The translations under genes were made by a program, and so were the position numbers. A model generated the notes under the pieces. The model saw only the letters and a list, made by a program, of their open reading frames with translations. It was not told the origin of the DNA and did no database searches. This document shows, piece by piece, positions 13,829 through 19,928 of a stretch of DNA of 64,000 bases. Source of the stretch: an uncultured Lachnospiraceae bacterium (GTDB taxonomy: Bacteria > Bacillota > Clostridia > Lachnospirales > Lachnospiraceae); assembly GCA_902789665.1 (NCBI GenBank), contig CADAOY010000004.1, positions 186,001-250,000 of the forward strand, read 5' to 3'. Each line of letters begins with the position of its first letter. The first letter of the stretch is position 1.

Positions 13829-15766
13829 ATGAAAGAAATTGATGAAAATGATGTAGAACAGGTTAAAAATGATAATACTATTGATATAGCTTTATATCAG
13901 AATCTGAAGGGTCAGAAGGATAGTTTTTTAAATTATACAGGCACAAACCATGACACAGTAAGCAATATGCTTTTTGCCCTTAATCATATTGCCAGCAAAT
14001 ATGAAGAAATGTCTGAGAGCAAGAATAAACTTAGCGATGAGGAGGCAATTAAGGAAAAAGAAAGAGTTGCCGGAATGTATCCTAAGATCAAAAAGTTTAC
14101 AAAGGCAGTAAAAGATTTGCAGGAAGCAGCTTATCAGACATATGGGGAAGATGATCCTGAAATTATCCAGCAAACACTTAATACAATAGCAGCATTTCAT
14201 TCTTTTCTTGTAGACGGAGAAGGAACAACTAATTTCAACAAAATTCTAACAGATATATCAACTGATAAAAAGTTAGCTTTTAAATATAAAAAAAGTTTTG
14301 ATCAGGGTTTGAAAATTCTCGACGACGCTTTTAAGTGTGGACTTAACCCTCAGGAACTTATGAAGGTTGAGCCTAAAGAGGAGAAGAAAGCCCAGGAAAA
14401 GCCTGAGAAGAAGGACGAAGGCATCAAAAATGAGCATGATTATAATGCATATCTTAATTCAAAGGCATATAAGGATGTTCAGTCTTCCAAGGACGCACTT
14501 CACTGGGTTGATTATTTAAAGAGTGAATATGGCAAGGATCCAAATTCATTTAAGAGTAAGCCTGAATATCCTGATAATTTCCTGACATCCATTATTGCTG
14601 TAAGAGATATAGCAGGTGCAGAGAGAAATGAACCTTCAACATTAAGAAGAGGAGGACTTATTTCTCAGAGTGATATTAATGGTCGTATTGGTACTCTAAA
14701 GCAAAACGATCATTTTAAAGAATGGCTTGCTGAATTTAAAAGAGATCCGGCATATCTTGCCAAGGCAGAGAGCGCTGCTACCGTAACATTTGGTCATGGC
14801 GGCAAGGTTGAAGATATGTTTAAGAAATTTCTTATGAAACAGCCTGCAGGTGCTCTTGAGTATGATCCAACAATTGCAAGATTAATGCCTACTGTCAAAG
14901 AGCGTATTGAAGGTTTGCAGGATCAGATTAAAAACGGCAAGAAAAATAATCCGGAATTCGTTGCAACTGCAGCGGCGGAGATTTTGCTCCTTCGTAATAA
15001 GATTAAATGTGAAAGAAATAAAAAGAGTTCTCTTAATGTTAAGTGCCCATGCGACGATCCTCAGTTTAATCAGAGTATTAAGGATCTGGCAGCACAGAAT
15101 ACTTTTAAATTAATGTTACAGAATCCTAGAATTTTATCCCAGATTACTGAAGGTCATGGCGGTGAAATGATTGACAGAATGAGAACTGAGTTTAACGATA
15201 AGGGATATACAAATGAGAGCGTTGGTCAGCCTCTTATGGAAGGAACCGTAGATGGAAGACTGGAGTATCTTAAGAATGAGGTTATTAAGACACATAATAA
15301 CTTCGCTGACTTCAAGCAACCTTCTCTTGAAGAGAAAAACAATGCCAAGAAAGTCATTGCTGAATATACATCATTAGCATCACTTAAGGTTAAAAAGCAT
15401 TATAAAGGATCGGACAATGTACCTAGAAGTACAGTTAATTCTTTCGTTGATAATGCAGTTAATCATGACAGAAATTTCTCACAATTATTTGATATTGATA
15501 ATGAATATTATTCTGTAATGAATGATATTGAGAATAAGAAAGAAGGCGCGTTTATTTCTTCATTTGATAAGAGAATGACGGGTGCCAAGATTAAAAACGA
15601 TGAAAGGGATAAGGAAGTTTTACGTTCAATGGCAGGTGAAGATAAGGTTCAGGGAAAGAAGATTGATGATGATATTTTCAAACCTGTAGATGAAAACCAG
15701 CTTGGCGACAAGGTTGAAATGAAGAACGGAAAGGTTCAGGTTAAAGGTAAAGCTAAAGGTAAGTAA
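13829..15766 (+). CDS. Large charged helical protein with ~120-residue GHGG repeats (second of a pair)
   Basis: 645 aa, cytoplasmic by sequence. It holds two internal repeats about 120 residues apart: FGHGGKVEDMFKKF (GHGG at 322-325) and EGHGGEMIDRMRTEF (GHGG at 442-445). Each is preceded by a run of the form NxxFKxxL and followed by a charged helix (KERIEGLQDQI / DGRLEYLKNEV). Between the repeats lies a Cys cluster, KCERN...KCPCDDP. A Lys/Glu-rich linker (about 187-205) separates an N-terminal helical part. Same opening residues and basic C-terminal tail as the gene upstream, 65 bases away, implying an old duplication. Function unknown. Confidence 0.75.
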   Translation: MKEIDENDVEQVKNDNTIDIALYQNLKGQKDSFLNYTGTNHDTVSNMLFALNHIASKYEEMSESKNKLSDEEAIKEKERVAGMYPKIKKFTKAVKDLQEAAYQTYGEDDPEIIQQTLNTIAAFHSFLVDGEGTTNFNKILTDISTDKKLAFKYKKSFDQGLKILDDAFKCGLNPQELMKVEPKEEKKAQEKPEKKDEGIKNEHDYNAYLNSKAYKDVQSSKDALHWVDYLKSEYGKDPNSFKSKPEYPDNFLTSIIAVRDIAGAERNEPSTLRRGGLISQSDINGRIGTLKQNDHFKEWLAEFKRDPAYLAKAESAATVTFGHGGKVEDMFKKFLMKQPAGALEYDPTIARLMPTVKERIEGLQDQIKNGKKNNPEFVATAAAEILLLRNKIKCERNKKSSLNVKCPCDDPQFNQSIKDLAAQNTFKLMLQNPRILSQITEGHGGEMIDRMRTEFNDKGYTNESVGQPLMEGTVDGRLEYLKNEVIKTHNNFADFKQPSLEEKNNAKKVIAEYTSLASLKVKKHYKGSDNVPRSTVNSFVDNAVNHDRNFSQLFDIDNEYYSVMNDIENKKEGAFISSFDKRMTGAKIKNDERDKEVLRSMAGEDKVQGKKIDDDIFKPVDENQLGDKVEMKNGKVQVKGKAKGK

Positions 15767-15903: not shown

Positions 15904-16491
15904 ATGGATGAGAGATTAAAAAGGCAGATTGATTTTGCACTTGAGATAGATAAAGAGAAAAATATATTCAGGCAGACGCATCTTACGAATCATGGCAGAA
16001 ATGAGAATGACGCTGAGCATGCATGGCATATGGCGATAATGGCATATCTTCTTAGGGAATATTCCAATGAGGAAGTTGATATAGCCAAAGTTATGCTGAT
16101 GTGTCTTATACACGACATTGTGGAGATAGATGCGGGAGATACTTATGCTTATGACTCGAAAGCGATAGAGAGTCAGAAAGAAAGAGAGGATGCTGCGAAG
16201 GAAAGGATTTTCTCACTGCTTCCTCAGGATCAGAAGGAAGAGATGATTGCTCTTTTTGATGAATTTGAGAACTGCGAAAGTGCAGAGTCCAAATATGCTC
16301 ACGCAATGGATAACCTGCAGCCTCTTATCTTAAATGACAGTAATAATGGGGGCGACTGGAAAGAGCATGAAGTTACATCCGATAAGATTTATCAAAGGCA
16401 TATAAAGACAAAGATGGGGTCGGAGATTTTGTTCGAATTAACGGATTCAATTATTAAAGAGAATATAAAAAAAGGTAATTTGCCTAAGTAG
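15904..16491 (+). CDS. HD-domain phosphohydrolase (YfbR/HDDC2-like)
   Basis: 195 aa. The metal-binding HD signature is complete: His in NDAEHAWHM, HD in LIHDIVEID, and a downstream Asp in HAMDNLQPLI. The spacing and the motif VEIDAGDTYAYD match the HDDC2/YfbR group of 5'-deoxynucleotidases, which dephosphorylate deoxynucleoside monophosphates; other members have unproven substrates. GGAGA precedes the ATG by 9 bases. It probably shares a transcript with the membrane protein 20 bases downstream. Confidence 0.75.
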   Translation: MDERLKRQIDFALEIDKEKNIFRQTHLTNHGRNENDAEHAWHMAIMAYLLREYSNEEVDIAKVMLMCLIHDIVEIDAGDTYAYDSKAIESQKEREDAAKERIFSLLPQDQKEEMIALFDEFENCESAESKYAHAMDNLQPLILNDSNNGGDWKEHEVTSDKIYQRHIKTKMGSEILFELTDSIIKENIKKGNLPK

Positions 16492-16511
16492 GTTAAGGAG
16501 GATTAAGGGAG

Positions 16512-17030
16512 ATGGAGACGAAGGTTTCTAAAAGAGTTAGGTTTGTAACGATTATCAGTATTATTTTTGCAGTGACGTCATTATTTTATTTAGGATTGGC
16601 AGTGGCGTATTTTATAGCAATGGGCGTTACACTGATGACAGGAAATGAATATGAAATGCTTGGTTTCGTATTTGGACTGATTGGTTTGCCGCTTGTAATT
16701 ATTATTCTGGCTTTTCCGATTTTTAGAGTTATTATTCTGGTTTTAAGCTTGAATATAAGGAAAAAATATAAAGAAGGTCGAAAGGCAAAAGGTATGGCTA
16801 TTACCACGGCAGTTATGCAGATTATTGATGCAGTTGCTTCACCGGTTGCTTTCTTCTTTATTGGCTCAATGATCTTTTTGTTTAGCCAGGATATATTTAA
16901 TGCGATACCGGGTGGTGGATTGTTATATTCCATTTTTGGTTTGACAATTAATATTCCGGTAATAGCTAAAGGTGTGTTGCAGATAATAGCTTCGGTTATG
17001 CTTTTTAAGAGTGCGGGGGAACTTTATTAA
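16512..17030 (+). CDS. Four-helix membrane protein of unknown function
   Basis: 172 aa. Four hydrophobic segments (about 12-36, 48-80, 95-124, 128-166) separated by a basic cytoplasmic loop (NIRKKYKEGRKAKG). No family recognised. The start has AAGGAGG 11 bases upstream with a further GGGAG close by. The gene follows the HD hydrolase in an apparent operon. Confidence 0.65.
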   Translation: METKVSKRVRFVTIISIIFAVTSLFYLGLAVAYFIAMGVTLMTGNEYEMLGFVFGLIGLPLVIIILAFPIFRVIILVLSLNIRKKYKEGRKAKGMAITTAVMQIIDAVASPVAFFFIGSMIFLFSQDIFNAIPGGGLLYSIFGLTINIPVIAKGVLQIIASVMLFKSAGELY

Positions 17031-17088
17031 AGAGCCCGGAAGGTGCGAATAATTTAAGTATTGGGGATAAACTATCCGGGTAAATATG

Positions 17089-17118
17089 TTGTGATAGACT
17101 GCATTATTATTGTATAAT
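17089..17118 (+). promoter_or_regulatory. Promoter for the leader-peptide cluster
   Basis: TTGTGA (17089-17094) and a perfect TATAAT (17113-17118) are 18 bases apart, 24 bases before the first small ORF. Confidence 0.55.
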
Positions 17119-17141
17119 AAGTATAAGTGAGGGTTACAGAT

Positions 17142-17174
17142 ATGAGAGATGAATTATTAAAGGATTTTGACTAA
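17142..17174 (+). pseudogene. Truncated copy of the double-glycine leader (10 codons)
   Basis: ATG at 17142 opens MRDELLKDFD and stops at TAA. The first seven residues match the openings MRLELLKGL and MREELLKGL of the two intact genes that follow, and a GAGGG sequence lies upstream. The rest of the leader and the core are gone; the next gene's ribosome site begins five bases after the stop. Most likely a remnant of a third tandem copy, or less likely a short upstream ORF. Confidence 0.5.
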
Positions 17175-17194
17175 TAATTGAGGAGGGCAAAACT

Positions 17195-17485
17195 ATGAGA
17201 TTGGAATTATTAAAGGGGTTAACAGATGCGCAGATTAATAAACTTGCAAGATGCAAGAGTGCAGAAGAAATCTTGGAACTTGCCAAGGCTGAAGGTGTAG
17301 AACTTAATGAAGAGCAGCTTGCAGCTGTATCAGGTGGATGCGGAGAGAAAGCAGACCCTGTAAGATGTAATAAGTGTGGCTCACTGAACTGCGAAATGTA
17401 TCAGACAGTATTAAATGTGATAACTAAGGGATATGATTATAAATGGAGATGCAATGATTGCGGTAATGAATGGTTATGGGATTAA
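17195..17485 (+). CDS. Nif11-like double-glycine leader peptide with zinc-ribbon core
   Basis: 96 aa. Residues 1-48 are a leader of the gut-clostridial Nif11/bacteriocin type: MRLELLKGLT, AEEILELAKAEGVELNEEQ, then AAVSGG, where peptidase-ABC exporters cut after Gly48. Residues 49-96 hold C49, then CNKCG (Cys58, Cys61), Cys66 and CNDCG (Cys86, Cys89), a four-Cys zinc-ribbon pattern with two extra Cys. The core ends in WLWD. Ribosome site GAGGAGG. No modifying enzyme or exporter is nearby. It may be an exported metal-binding peptide or a natural-product precursor; the function is unknown. Confidence 0.75.
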   Translation: MRLELLKGLTDAQINKLARCKSAEEILELAKAEGVELNEEQLAAVSGGCGEKADPVRCNKCGSLNCEMYQTVLNVITKGYDYKWRCNDCGNEWLWD

Positions 17486-17499
17486 TTGGAGGCTTATAT

Positions 17500-17781
17500 A
17501 TGAGAGAAGAACTGTTAAAGGGCTTAACTGAAGAGCAGATTAAGAAAGTTAAAGCCTGTAAGACCTCCGCAGAAATACTGAATCTCGCCAAGGCAGAAGG
17601 AATAGAATTAAATGAAGAACAGCTTGCAGCAATAAGTGGTGGTGCTTGTGGAGACGGTGATAAACCACTTAAGTGTCCAAAGTGTGGTTCTAAGGACTGG
17701 GAGGTTAGTGGTCCCGGGTTTAAATGCAACAAATGTGGTGAACTTTTTGCCGATAACCGAGTGCATGTTCCGTGGGAATAA
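17500..17781 (+). CDS. Nif11-like double-glycine leader peptide with zinc-ribbon core (second copy)
   Basis: 93 aa. The start at 17500 is preferred over an upstream ATG (17470) because GGAGG precedes it and the opening MREELLKGLT matches its neighbour. Leader 1-48 ends AAISGG; it is about two thirds identical to the first copy. The 45-residue core has C50, CPKCG (Cys59, Cys62) and CNKCG (Cys76, Cys79) spaced like a rubredoxin/zinc-ribbon knuckle pair, then a tail ending HVPWE. The core differs much more from the first copy than the leader does, the pattern expected when leaders are kept for one exporter while cores diversify. Confidence 0.75.
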   Translation: MREELLKGLTEEQIKKVKACKTSAEILNLAKAEGIELNEEQLAAISGGACGDGDKPLKCPKCGSKDWEVSGPGFKCNKCGELFADNRVHVPWE

Positions 17782-17808
17782 AATAAAAAATGTAAAAATT
17801 ATAACGAT

Positions 17809-17840
17809 TAAAGCCATGGCTTATAAAGGCCATGGCTTTA
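17809..17840. terminator. Bidirectional terminator between leader peptides and chemoreceptor
   Basis: Perfect 12-bp stem TAAAGCCATGGC/GCCATGGCTTTA with an 8-base loop, flanked by A-rich and T-rich tracts. It can end both the plus-strand peptide cluster and the minus-strand chemoreceptor gene. Confidence 0.75.
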
Positions 17841-17894
17841 TTTATGTATTTGGACTTGTAATTGTTAAATGCAAAGTTCTTTGCAAAATAACGA

Positions 17895-19928
17895 TTATGA
17901 GAATTTCTCAACAATCTCTTTAATTGCATTAGCATTTTCTTTATTTTGATTAACCATTGCAATCATATCAGCGGTTGTTTCGGCTGTCTGGTTAGCCTTG
18001 TCGATTACAATGCTGCTGTCGACAGTCTTGTCGCCTGGAACATCTGATACCTGTCTAATCTGCATATCGATATGTTTTACAATAGTAGCAAAGGTTTCTG
18101 ATGAATCTGACATCTCAGAGATGATATTTCTTAAATCTGTAACAGAAGAGTAGTAGTCTTCTGTGGATTTGGCGAAATCTTCAAACTGGTGCTGAACATC
18201 GTTCTGAAGGAAGGCGATGATCTGGTCGAAGCAGTTCTGAACTTCCACGATATTATTTCTGGTTTCATTACAAAGCTGCTGAATCTGGGTAGCAGTTTCT
18301 GAAGAACTCTTGGCAAGGTTACCGATTTCACCTGCAACAACTGCAAAACCACGTCCGGCTTCACCTGCACGGGCAGCCTCGATAGAAGCATTTAATGATA
18401 AGAGGTCAGTCTGTTCTGTAATCTCCAGAATTCTTTGTGCCATCTCATCGATTCGCATAAGTGTCTGAAGTTTCTGGATTGATTCTTCAATAGATTTCTG
18501 ATTCTCAGCAATCTGCTCGCTTGTTGCGGCCATAGTAGAATTTGTAAGTTCTTGCATCTTCTGAACTTTAACGAGTAACTCATTACTGTAATTGTTACCT
18601 TCTTTAATACGATTCTCAACATCGGCTACGACATTGGTAATCTCGCTTATCTGTGATTCAACATGGCTTACAGCATTATTTATGGACTCTGCATGCTCTG
18701 CATAAGCGCTGGCAGCCTCAGTATTCTCTGTAACGCAGGTATTGAGTATCTTTGAAGAATTTTGCATAGCTACAGATGAATCGCTTAATGAAGATGAGCA
18801 TGTTGATAAAGTATTTACGATGTCGCTGAGTGAATCGTGGAGAAGGTCAAGGGCAGTTGCGATTTTGCCAATCTCACTTCTTTTACCTGTCCAAGGTTTA
18901 AGCTTAGCGCTTTTTTCGATTCTTAAATTGCTTAATCTGATAATTGCTTCTTCAATATATTTAAGAGGTTTGGTGTTGATTGTGATTAGGATAAAGCAAA
19001 GGGTGCAGATAACAACGACAAATGCGATGCATATGATGGCAAGGACACGCATTGTACGGTTTGCTGAGCCGAAGATGTTCTTCTGGCTGTCGTAAGATAT
19101 GATAACCCAGTTGTGCTCAGGGATTGCTCTGAAGTTTGCAATCTGCTTGCCTGCATCGTTTGTGAATGAAAGTTCGCCGCTTTCTTCGCCTGCTTTAACC
19201 TTTTCCATAATTTCAAGGAGCATTTCGTCCTCAATTTCGGTTGCGATAAGTGAACTGTCATCTGCAAAGATATAATGGTTTGTCTCGGTATTAACCATGA
19301 AATATGTTGATGTGTCCTCGTCGCTTCTTAATTCATTAAGCGCACTTTCGAGATCTTCAACATATGTACCGCCGCCAACATAGCCTACGATAGAACCGCC
19401 GTCATAAACAGGGCAGTACATTGAAAGAATTAAAGTCTGTGATGCAGGTGAAATGATAATACCTGTATCATAAAGACCGTTATTTGCCAGCATAGCATCC
19501 TGAAGAGCCTTAACGGCATTAGGGTCTTTTCTGAATATAGCGCCTACATACTGTTTATCACTATGTACGAGGCAGTGGGTAGTTGCCCATTCACCAATAT
19601 AGATACCTTCCCAGTTAGGCAGGGTTGAATAATAATCCTCAGTGTATTTCTGCGCAGCCGCAAGTAACTCCGGATTCTCCGGATCTTTGAGCAAATCAAC
19701 GAAGATAGGCTCATGGCTGTACTGTTCCAGAAGATTCTCCTGCTCATTAACATACTGGTTTATCAAGCTCGCCTGAGCCGATAAAACATTGTTATGATTG
19801 GTGTTCTCGGAATCCTGTATCATGTTCTTAATGGTAGTATTTGCTGTGAAATACAGAAGCAACATACCAAAAGCTACAGTTATAAAAACACCAAGTGTAA
19901 GCTTATTACGTAATTTCATGTTTTTCAT
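17895..19928 (-). CDS. Methyl-accepting chemotaxis protein with Cache sensor
   Basis: 677 aa. N-terminal membrane helix (~10-30), an extracellular sensor of about 240 residues with a double-Cache layout ([32 protein letters not shown]), a second membrane helix (~290-313), a HAMP-like linker and a long methyl-accepting coiled coil. The signalling tip is intact: [20 protein letters not shown] then [14 protein letters not shown]. No C-terminal CheR/CheB tether is seen. It would feed attractant or repellent binding to CheW/CheA. The gene stands alone. AAGGGATG lies 5 bases ahead of the first Met. Confidence 0.92.

Follow-up and report, generated by a model that had tools for sequence, protein, structure and literature searches.

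The DNA considered here is a stretch of 64,000 nucleotides from an uncultured Lachnospiraceae bacterium (GenBank assembly GCA_902789665.1, contig CADAOY010000004.1, positions 186,001 to 250,000 of the forward strand), which we call the window, and our subject is a unit of two small plus-strand genes at its positions 17142-17781. Gene 1 (17195-17485) encodes 96 residues and gene 2 (17500-17781) encodes 93. In a mechanical list of open reading frames (ORFs) gene 2 begins at 17470; we set its start at 17500 because homology and a ribosome-site-like GGAG favour that position. Each protein opens with a 48-residue leader, ending in VSGG in gene 1 (17195-17338) and in ISGG in gene 2 (17500-17643), and continues into a short core with two CxxC knuckles that is predicted to form a zinc ribbon. 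The gene 1 core (48 residues; 17339-17485 with the stop) has Cys49 directly after the two glycines, followed by C58/C61 and C86/C89, with strands predicted at residues 66-74, 79-86 and 92-95. The gene 2 core (45 residues; 17644-17781 with the stop) has an N-proximal Cys50 and then C59/C62 and C76/C79. A preliminary description, made from the sequence alone, had already reported two adjacent genes with 48-residue leaders ending in SGG and paired knuckles in the cores, and all of these were found where it placed them. Its estimate that the shared leaders are about two thirds identical was low, as 35 of the 48 residues (73%) agree. We propose, with a probability of roughly two in three, that both genes specify precursors of small metal-binding proteins destined for export and belong to a system resembling those of ribosomally synthesized and post-translationally modified peptides (RiPPs), in which a single machine encoded in trans serves many substrates.

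No enzyme or exporter adjoins the pair anywhere in the window, as the preliminary description had said. It had suggested a genome search for a C39-peptidase transporter and for further leader genes, and this gave one transporter and ten genes. The assembly (2.25 Mb, 91.5% complete) holds ten ribbon leader genes at three places, namely the two in the window, two at C4:159089-159660 and six at C5:79821-82976. All 32 candidates were scored for this count, and a leader-type query returned the identical ten with all 23 of its candidates scored. Since ten such genes are present in this genome and a scan of named genomes found 182 stretches encoding relatives, the arrangement is not due to chance. 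The single Peptidase_C39 domain of the genome (6/6 candidates scored) lies on another contig, at C1:338663, and forms the N-terminus of an NHLM-type ATP-binding cassette (ABC) transporter, ABC1 (TIGR03796, 844.7 bits vs a cut-off of 853.3). It has Q20, C26, H100 and D116, residues that we take to be the functional ones of C39 peptidases. A second transporter gene, ABC2, follows (TIGR03797, 598.5 vs 709.4 bits, the match beginning at model position 100), and ABC1 is preceded by genes for a small HlyD-like protein (TIGR03794, 23.5 vs 156.2 bits) and a radical S-adenosylmethionine (SAM)/SPASM enzyme. The NHLM genes expected of such a cassette lie side by side, every score staying under its curated cut-off. 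We found no leader gene within the 19 kb fetched around the cassette. A calpain-like protein of 805 residues is encoded near it (L005:4201-6618), and between ribbon genes five and six on contig C5 lies a gene for a lipoprotein-like protein with a Lectin_like domain (PF18560) that by eye resembles a papain-type cysteine protease (L006:9337-10668).

The figures for named genomes given below rest on the best 80 of the 182 matching stretches, which comprise 76 loci. These belong to Lachnospiraceae (one with the label Pseudobutyrivibrio), to metagenome-assembled genomes (MAGs) labelled Erysipelotrichaceae, Bacillales or Bacilli, and to a few others. Many of the related genomes carry rumen isolate names, and they are not independent samples, which makes P values computed over them come out too small. 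From all loci 255 distinct leader ORFs were collected; a later set kept 237 of 271 distinct leader ORFs (score of at least 60, complete leader, Gly-Gly, no X). Ribbon genes number 219 in 32 genomes, from one to at least 25 per genome. One of the MAGs with a ribbon cassette (RGIG4496; L121 and L187) is labelled Methanomethylophilaceae, and its cassette most likely sits on a misbinned bacterial contig.

The machine genes co-occurred with the ribbon genes. ABC1 at 600 bits or more was present in 27 of the 31 named ribbon genomes (absent from G311, G314, G320 and G328) vs 36 of 299 genomes of the family, one of which (G295) counts only with its pieces joined; two of the 31, G252 (SIG318) and G261 (SIG280), are themselves family genomes. 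Among family genomes with leader genes ABC1 was found in 13/13, or in 14/19 if all genomes matched are counted; the six dropped for the former figure had core-only matches (G040, G070, G129, G163) or matches that were partial or contained stops (G135, G165). The cassette radical SAM protein was more restricted. With up to five candidates scored per genome, it exceeded 900 bits in exactly 3/299 family genomes, which are the three with full-length ribbon genes (the genome of the window, G000, together with G252 and G261), and in a phylum-wide set of 398 genomes it was present in two, the genome of the window and G261. It was present in 27/31 named ribbon genomes (missing from G314, G320, G325 and G328), and diverged relatives occurred in G250 (553 bits) and G012 (418 bits), genomes that also have Nif11-type leaders.

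The leaders are strongly conserved up to the presumed cut. Gly-Gly was present in 226/226 complete leaders of a set chosen without a Gly-Gly filter, so that no homologue that had lost the pair came to light. In the later set of 237, for which Gly-Gly was an entry condition, position -4 is V or I in 235, position -7 is L in 228 (I or M in the rest) and position -12 is L in all 237. According to the passages available from a study of the Lah system, the C39 domain of LahT recognises the last 13 leader residues, and mutation showed that positions -4, -7 and -12 matter (PMC6363468). Cleavage after Gly-Gly and export are well-founded predictions, because these recognition positions are kept and the C39 domain of the window's own genome has its four residues, and we regard export by the NHLM/C39 machine as very probable on these sequence grounds. 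The preliminary description had offered orphan substrates of an exporter encoded elsewhere as one possibility, and the sole C39 transporter on another contig, together with co-occurrence and with adjacency in relatives (below), supports this. Mean pairwise identity falls from 71% in the leader to 28% in the core in an alignment of 80 of 111 sequences picked for diverse cores, which also served for the structure prediction, and from 72% to 36% when 3000 pairs are drawn at random from all 222 complete ribbon proteins. This drop at the glycine pair, the invariance of the pair, the retention of all three LahT recognition positions and an exporter that co-occurs and adjoins make it very unlikely that we are dealing with cytoplasmic zinc-ribbon proteins that act inside the cell, for example in transcription, and whose leader is an uncut folding or targeting domain, even though the families matched by the cores (TFIIS, TFIIB and IS1595 transposase types) are mostly intracellular ribbons. 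Cys20 of the leader is nearly invariant as well (90% or more of the 80 sequences).

The cores very probably adopt a ribbon fold, as judged from modelling and profile matches. In an AlphaFold model built on the 80-sequence alignment the gene 1 core reached a predicted local distance difference test (pLDDT) score near 90 from about residue 60. The best Foldseek match was the TFIIS ribbon 1tfi (E 0.023, probability 1.00), and NrdR ribbons superposed on the gene 1 core at 1.5-1.9 A over about 40 residues. Sequence profiles of the cores led to TFIIS, IS1595 and TFIIB-type ribbons and to no one family. The structure prediction and these matches agree with the earlier view of the core as a folded metal-binding module. 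Two or more CxxC motifs past position 48 were found in 225 of the 255 leader ORFs, a figure to be read knowing that the search profile included the ribbon and the sample leans to ribbons. At 60% identity the cores fell into 94 types, of which 51 are singletons and 43 have more than one member, many of them recurring between species. The cores had been called diverged, which is true between paralogues and does not extend to these recurring types. None of the 94 types spans the Lachnospiraceae-type genomes and the other genome group; that of gene 1 occurs in six Lachnospiraceae-type genomes. The genomes accordingly have different sets of core types. Over 219 ortholog-like pairs, chosen for a core identity of 0.65-0.99, for equal length and for different genomes, the pooled ratio of nonsynonymous to synonymous substitution rates (dN/dS) was 0.12 for the core and 0.15 for the leader; this choice of pairs lowers the core figure. 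Positive selection on the cores was considered and set aside; the ratio only argues against strong diversification within core types.

Two explanations of what exported ribbons might do were weighed against their neighbourhood, for which we clustered, over the 32 genomes, the ORFs of at least 60 residues lying no more than 4 kb from a ribbon gene. As the survey had no random-gene background for comparison, we draw nothing firm from recurring neighbours. The largest cluster (19 genomes) was by eye an artefact of antisense frames of leader genes and was discarded. The widest real clusters were sensor kinases (9/32 genomes; Pfam on three members) and ABC proteins (9/32, partly the exporter itself), followed by SpoIIE-type phosphatases (5 genomes; Pfam on one member) and a chemoreceptor (3 genomes, including that of the window). 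That the ribbons are classical bacteriocins, each a toxin with its own immunity gene, would suit their NHLM-type export and the varying repertoires, with one to at least 25 ribbon genes per genome and ten in the genome of the window against three leader genes in its sister genome UBA4338. No immunity-like neighbour recurred, and this explanation appears unlikely, with the reservation that an immunity gene shorter than 60 residues or too variable to cluster would have escaped the survey. Slightly less likely still is a role of the exported ribbons in metal scavenging or delivery, along the lines of a suggestion in the preliminary description. All 222 cores offer four potential ligands in two CxxC pairs, by selection, and genes of a ZIP zinc-transporter cluster lie near ribbon genes in 3/32 genomes: in RUG145 a ZIP gene (PF02535, 82.4 bits, L072:8789-9571) begins 166 bp beyond two ribbon genes, a close relative (L078:8563-9354) starts 272 bp after one ribbon gene in SIG318, and a 76-residue piece of the cluster lies 2.3 kb from a ribbon gene in RUG14596 (L103). 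These neighbours are a lead for metal handling and raise its odds a little, but the other 29 genomes had no member of the cluster within 4 kb, metal capture would hardly need 94 core types, and zinc ribbons normally hold their zinc structurally.

Besides the four knuckle cysteines, the cores share a fifth, which the preliminary description had overlooked. It lies 0-4 residues past Gly-Gly and before the first knuckle in 222/222 complete ribbon cores (offset 0 in 48, 1 in 114, 2 in 49, 3 in 6 and 4 in 5). The non-ribbon cores of the set of 237 have such a cysteine in 15/15; two of these (L060, L075) run into contig ends and probably represent cut ribbons, so that 13 remain. As a control we took 16 other Nif11-type leaders of the family, among which cysteine stood at offset 0-2 in four and at 0-4 in seven; three of the 16 are ribbon genes of G012 that neighbour a related radical SAM gene, and of the remaining 13 only two had a cysteine at 0-2.

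We then turned to the surroundings of the machine. The surroundings of ABC1 or radical SAM genes, fetched to a span of at most 20 kb, gave 40 loci after removal of duplicates. Of these, 29 contain the radical SAM gene; all distances were measured between open frames. In 7/40 loci (L158, L165, L170, L171, L174, L187, L217) ribbon genes lie within 1.3 kb of the radical SAM or ABC1 gene on the same strand, and in four more (L166, L172, L178, L180) they lie 2-3.3 kb away, on the other strand in L178 and L180. In 12/29 loci the radical SAM gene has, at a distance of 0-66 bp, a leader gene whose short core lacks a ribbon (for example ACTTEDEDHKKRKIDS), and in 12/12 of these short cores there is a cysteine at offset 0-1. 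The best independent evidence tying the enzyme to ribbons is the gene row of G012, a genome with longer leaders and a radical SAM protein of only 37% identity. Its enzyme gene is followed by three ribbon genes of regular build and a fourth, irregular copy with a shortened leader and a second knuckle of the form CxxxxC, the first start lying 85 bp past the stop of the enzyme gene. Other arrangements were seen in passing. In G250 (L218:9135-16014) NHLM ABC genes, a LanM-type protein (DUF4135 and LANC_like) and a radical SAM gene with 44% identity stand together, and by eye there is a Nif11-like precursor whose core opens GG-C and which is possibly meant for both enzymes. Many cassettes from outside the Lachnospiraceae (L167, L173, L183 and others) continue into STAS and SpoIIE-type genes (Pfam on L167), a partner-switch regulation module beside the exporter, and several ribbon genomes have, at L160, L162, L164, L169 and L175, a second, different NHLM pair (ABC1 44-56% identical) that is not accompanied by a close copy of the cassette radical SAM gene.

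The enzyme itself has the marks of a radical SAM/SPASM protein. In 23/23 aligned members the CxxxCxxC motif (C98/C102/C105) and the later SPASM cysteines are invariant, and the Pfam domains Radical_SAM and SPASM, the latter as in radical SAM/SPASM maturases, were recovered. Among such maturases the cassette enzyme matches SkfB with 41.2 bits over residues 47-269 and the structure 5v1q, which we take to be SuiB, with 31.9 bits over residues 49-182. That the fifth cysteine serves only as a metal ligand is improbable, because the short peptides without a ribbon have it too, and the partner common to both kinds of core is this enzyme. The preliminary description had seen in the core a folded metal-binding module and not a substrate for modification. 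We do not share the second half of that statement: the enzyme travels with exporter and peptides, the fifth cysteine stands next to the cut in 222/222 cores, and modification of the ribbons is for these two reasons a live possibility. On present sequence evidence we put modification of the ribbons by the radical SAM enzyme at only slightly short of even.

The enzyme may instead serve the short peptides only, the C39 transporter handling ribbons that leave the cell unmodified and sharing its service with those peptides or with another substrate of the enzyme. We consider this somewhat unlikely. It would fit the short-core genes so close to the enzyme gene and the appearance of the ribbons as self-sufficient folded modules. 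However, in several genomes ribbons are the only substrates seen and the enzyme is retained there: the genome of the window has ten leader genes and UBA4338 three, all of them ribbons, and in SIG280 (100% complete) a single full-length leader gene was found, which encodes a ribbon, besides a partial match of 25 residues. Since the assembly of the window's genome is 91.5% complete, it may lack a short peptide. In SIG318 the ribbon genes number at least 25, and the core of one further leader gene has no ribbon. The ribbon genes directly after the enzyme gene in G012, and the fifth cysteine common to ribbons and short peptides, likewise speak against unmodified export.

Our proposal of exported ribbons served by one machine in trans can be set out as follows. 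The Nif11-like leader would send each precursor to the machine on contig C1, which would consist of the radical SAM/SPASM enzyme, the small HlyD-like protein, the C39-peptidase ABC transporter and the second ABC transporter. Before export the enzyme would probably act on the precursor, the likeliest site being the N-proximal cysteine or its vicinity. We propose this residue, which we infer to be the modification site, because it is the clearest core feature common to the ribbons and to the short peptides beside the enzyme. The C39 domain would then cut past Gly-Gly, and the transporter would release a zinc ribbon of 45-48 residues whose first or second residue is a cysteine. Outside the cell antagonism or recognition would be the likeliest role, metal capture the next and signalling the least likely. 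Slightly more tentative than modification as such is the notion of a new RiPP class in which a radical SAM enzyme in trans modifies the cysteine beside the cut of many zinc ribbons and one C39 transporter cuts and exports them all.

Several observations weigh against this proposal. The radical SAM protein gave no match above cut-off in NCBIfam among the best 25 of 77 matching families; the top match was the heme b synthase AhbD with 106.7 bits vs a cut-off of 500. Besides peptide maturases, its best named matches are enzymes of heme, lipid and cofactor metabolism, and no match comes near its cut-off; a comparison with solved structures placed a tetraether lipid synthase (41.8 bits) level with, indeed just above, SkfB. 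A leader-binding, PqqD-like domain had no Pfam match in three tested N-termini of about 90 residues before the enzyme core. From the available sequence of three of the 31 ribbon genomes (G314, G320 and G328; 0.7-1.3 Mb) both machine genes are missing, and 9/29 radical SAM loci, that of the window's own genome included, have no leader gene in the fetched stretch, some of them ending at contig ends. At least two ribbons outside the 222 lack the N-proximal cysteine, namely that of L165, which lies beside the radical SAM gene, and the irregular copy of G012. The modelled gene 1 leader has low confidence (pLDDT 50-58), and no Foldseek match of the gene 1 core reached E <= 0.001. Finally, the window proteins score below the Nif11 cut-offs, with 13.7 and 21.2 bits vs 32.3 for TIGR03798 and, for genes 1 and 2, 18.7 and 14.7 bits vs 23.8 for PF07862. 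A different copy of the leader in this genome does exceed the PF07862 cut-off, at 24.5 bits, and 71/80 relatives match TIGR03798 at E <= 0.01; the leaders are therefore homologous to the Nif11-leader family, would function in its manner and look like a diverged branch of it.

Among known systems, that of Lachnospiraceae bacterium C6A11 is closest. In the part of its description available, Lah has the C39 transporter LahT and nine Nif11-type LahA precursors, of which LahT150 cleaved the seven tested in vitro; it shares with the present system the family Lachnospiraceae, Nif11-type double-glycine leaders, a C39 transporter and several precursors with diverse cores (PMC6363468). The differences are that the Lah precursors lie in one cluster, whereas those described here are scattered in trans, go with a radical SAM/SPASM enzyme and carry predicted zinc-ribbon cores. 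The Lah precursors are presumably of the lanthipeptide type. The prochlorosins of marine picocyanobacteria (ProcA/ProcM) are, in the passages available, many Nif11-type precursors, 30 substrates in one strain (PMC6363468), served by one promiscuous enzyme (PMC10783134). Many Nif11-type precursors for a single machine are also seen here; unlike in the prochlorosins, the cores keep one cysteine scaffold throughout, and some core types occur in more than one species. In prochlorosins a LanM enzyme forms lanthionine rings in unfolded, hypervariable cores.

Nif11 and NHLP leaders with NHLM transporters, and the end of their similarity at Gly-Gly, were described by Haft (2010; PMC2887384, available in part). 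The present system resembles the NHLP/Nif11 precursors (TIGR03794, TIGR03796, TIGR03797) in its transporter genes and leader class; unlike here, the main text of that paper, as far as available, is without the term 'radical SAM', and 'zinc' appears twice, once about a cyclodehydratase. The Cys-rich peptides of TIGR04165 (methano_modCys) are matched by 9/80 ribbon proteins at E <= 0.01 (best 1e-5), gene 2 of the window scoring 14 bits against a cut-off of 60. We take this family to be associated with a radical SAM gene in methanogens, and we know of no Nif11 leader in it. By titles and abstract openings, with few subscription journals covered, no report of Nif11 or double-glycine leaders on zinc ribbons was found in the literature. 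The passages available from PMC9200625 are unrelated to leader-borne zinc ribbons, and a 2026 survey of rumen bacteriocins is, in the portion of its main text available, without Nif11, NHLM or zinc (PMC13289728).

The remaining features of the locus concern its expression and recent history. A promoter-like site (TTGTGA-18-TATAAT, 17089-17118, plus strand) lies 5' of the pair; it is weak evidence alone, with 3 such sites in the region vs 3.3 expected in shuffles. Downstream of gene 2 a strong terminator-like hairpin with a 14-pair stem and a T-rich tail (17809-17840, plus strand) is the longest and the sole plus-strand one of four such sites, vs 0.4 expected. No structured RNA match at gathering score was obtained from Rfam in region 16400-18000, and the queries used for mobile-element cargo gave no match in plasmids, phages or viral contigs. 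The truncated third copy reported earlier is real as an ORF of 10 codons (MRDELLKDFD*, 17142-17174, plus strand). It is borne by a 51-bp insertion (17123-17173) that holds the start of a leader gene and was recognised by alignment with UBA4338 (L047). The sister genome has a gene 1 relative with 97% identity and lacks both gene 2 and the 10-codon ORF, and the 'third copy' therefore looks like a lineage-specific remnant, probably of a further leader gene, in an array in flux. A role as a conserved regulatory peptide was rejected on account of its absence from UBA4338 and, by eye, from the 220 bases upstream of gene 1 relatives in four of four further loci (L048-L051). Large charged proteins that resemble each other are encoded near two of the genome's three ribbon loci (window positions 13829-15766, 645 residues, no Pfam match; L017:9888-12368, 826 residues).

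RiPP precursors are usually conceived as short unfolded cores. If the ribbons do form a new RiPP class, the secreted product would be folded, metal-holding mini-proteins, a modular arsenal or recognition set that could be extended by ribbon genes placed anywhere in the genome. Each part of such a system is of a known kind; what would be new is a predicted folded ribbon as cargo together with genes in trans and a dedicated radical SAM enzyme. Because the ribbon genes are scattered and the machine is separate, most of them would escape genome mining that looks for precursors beside the enzyme. Many candidate substrates, the 219 ribbon genes of 32 genomes, are thereby linked to a radical SAM subfamily that belongs to no named family.
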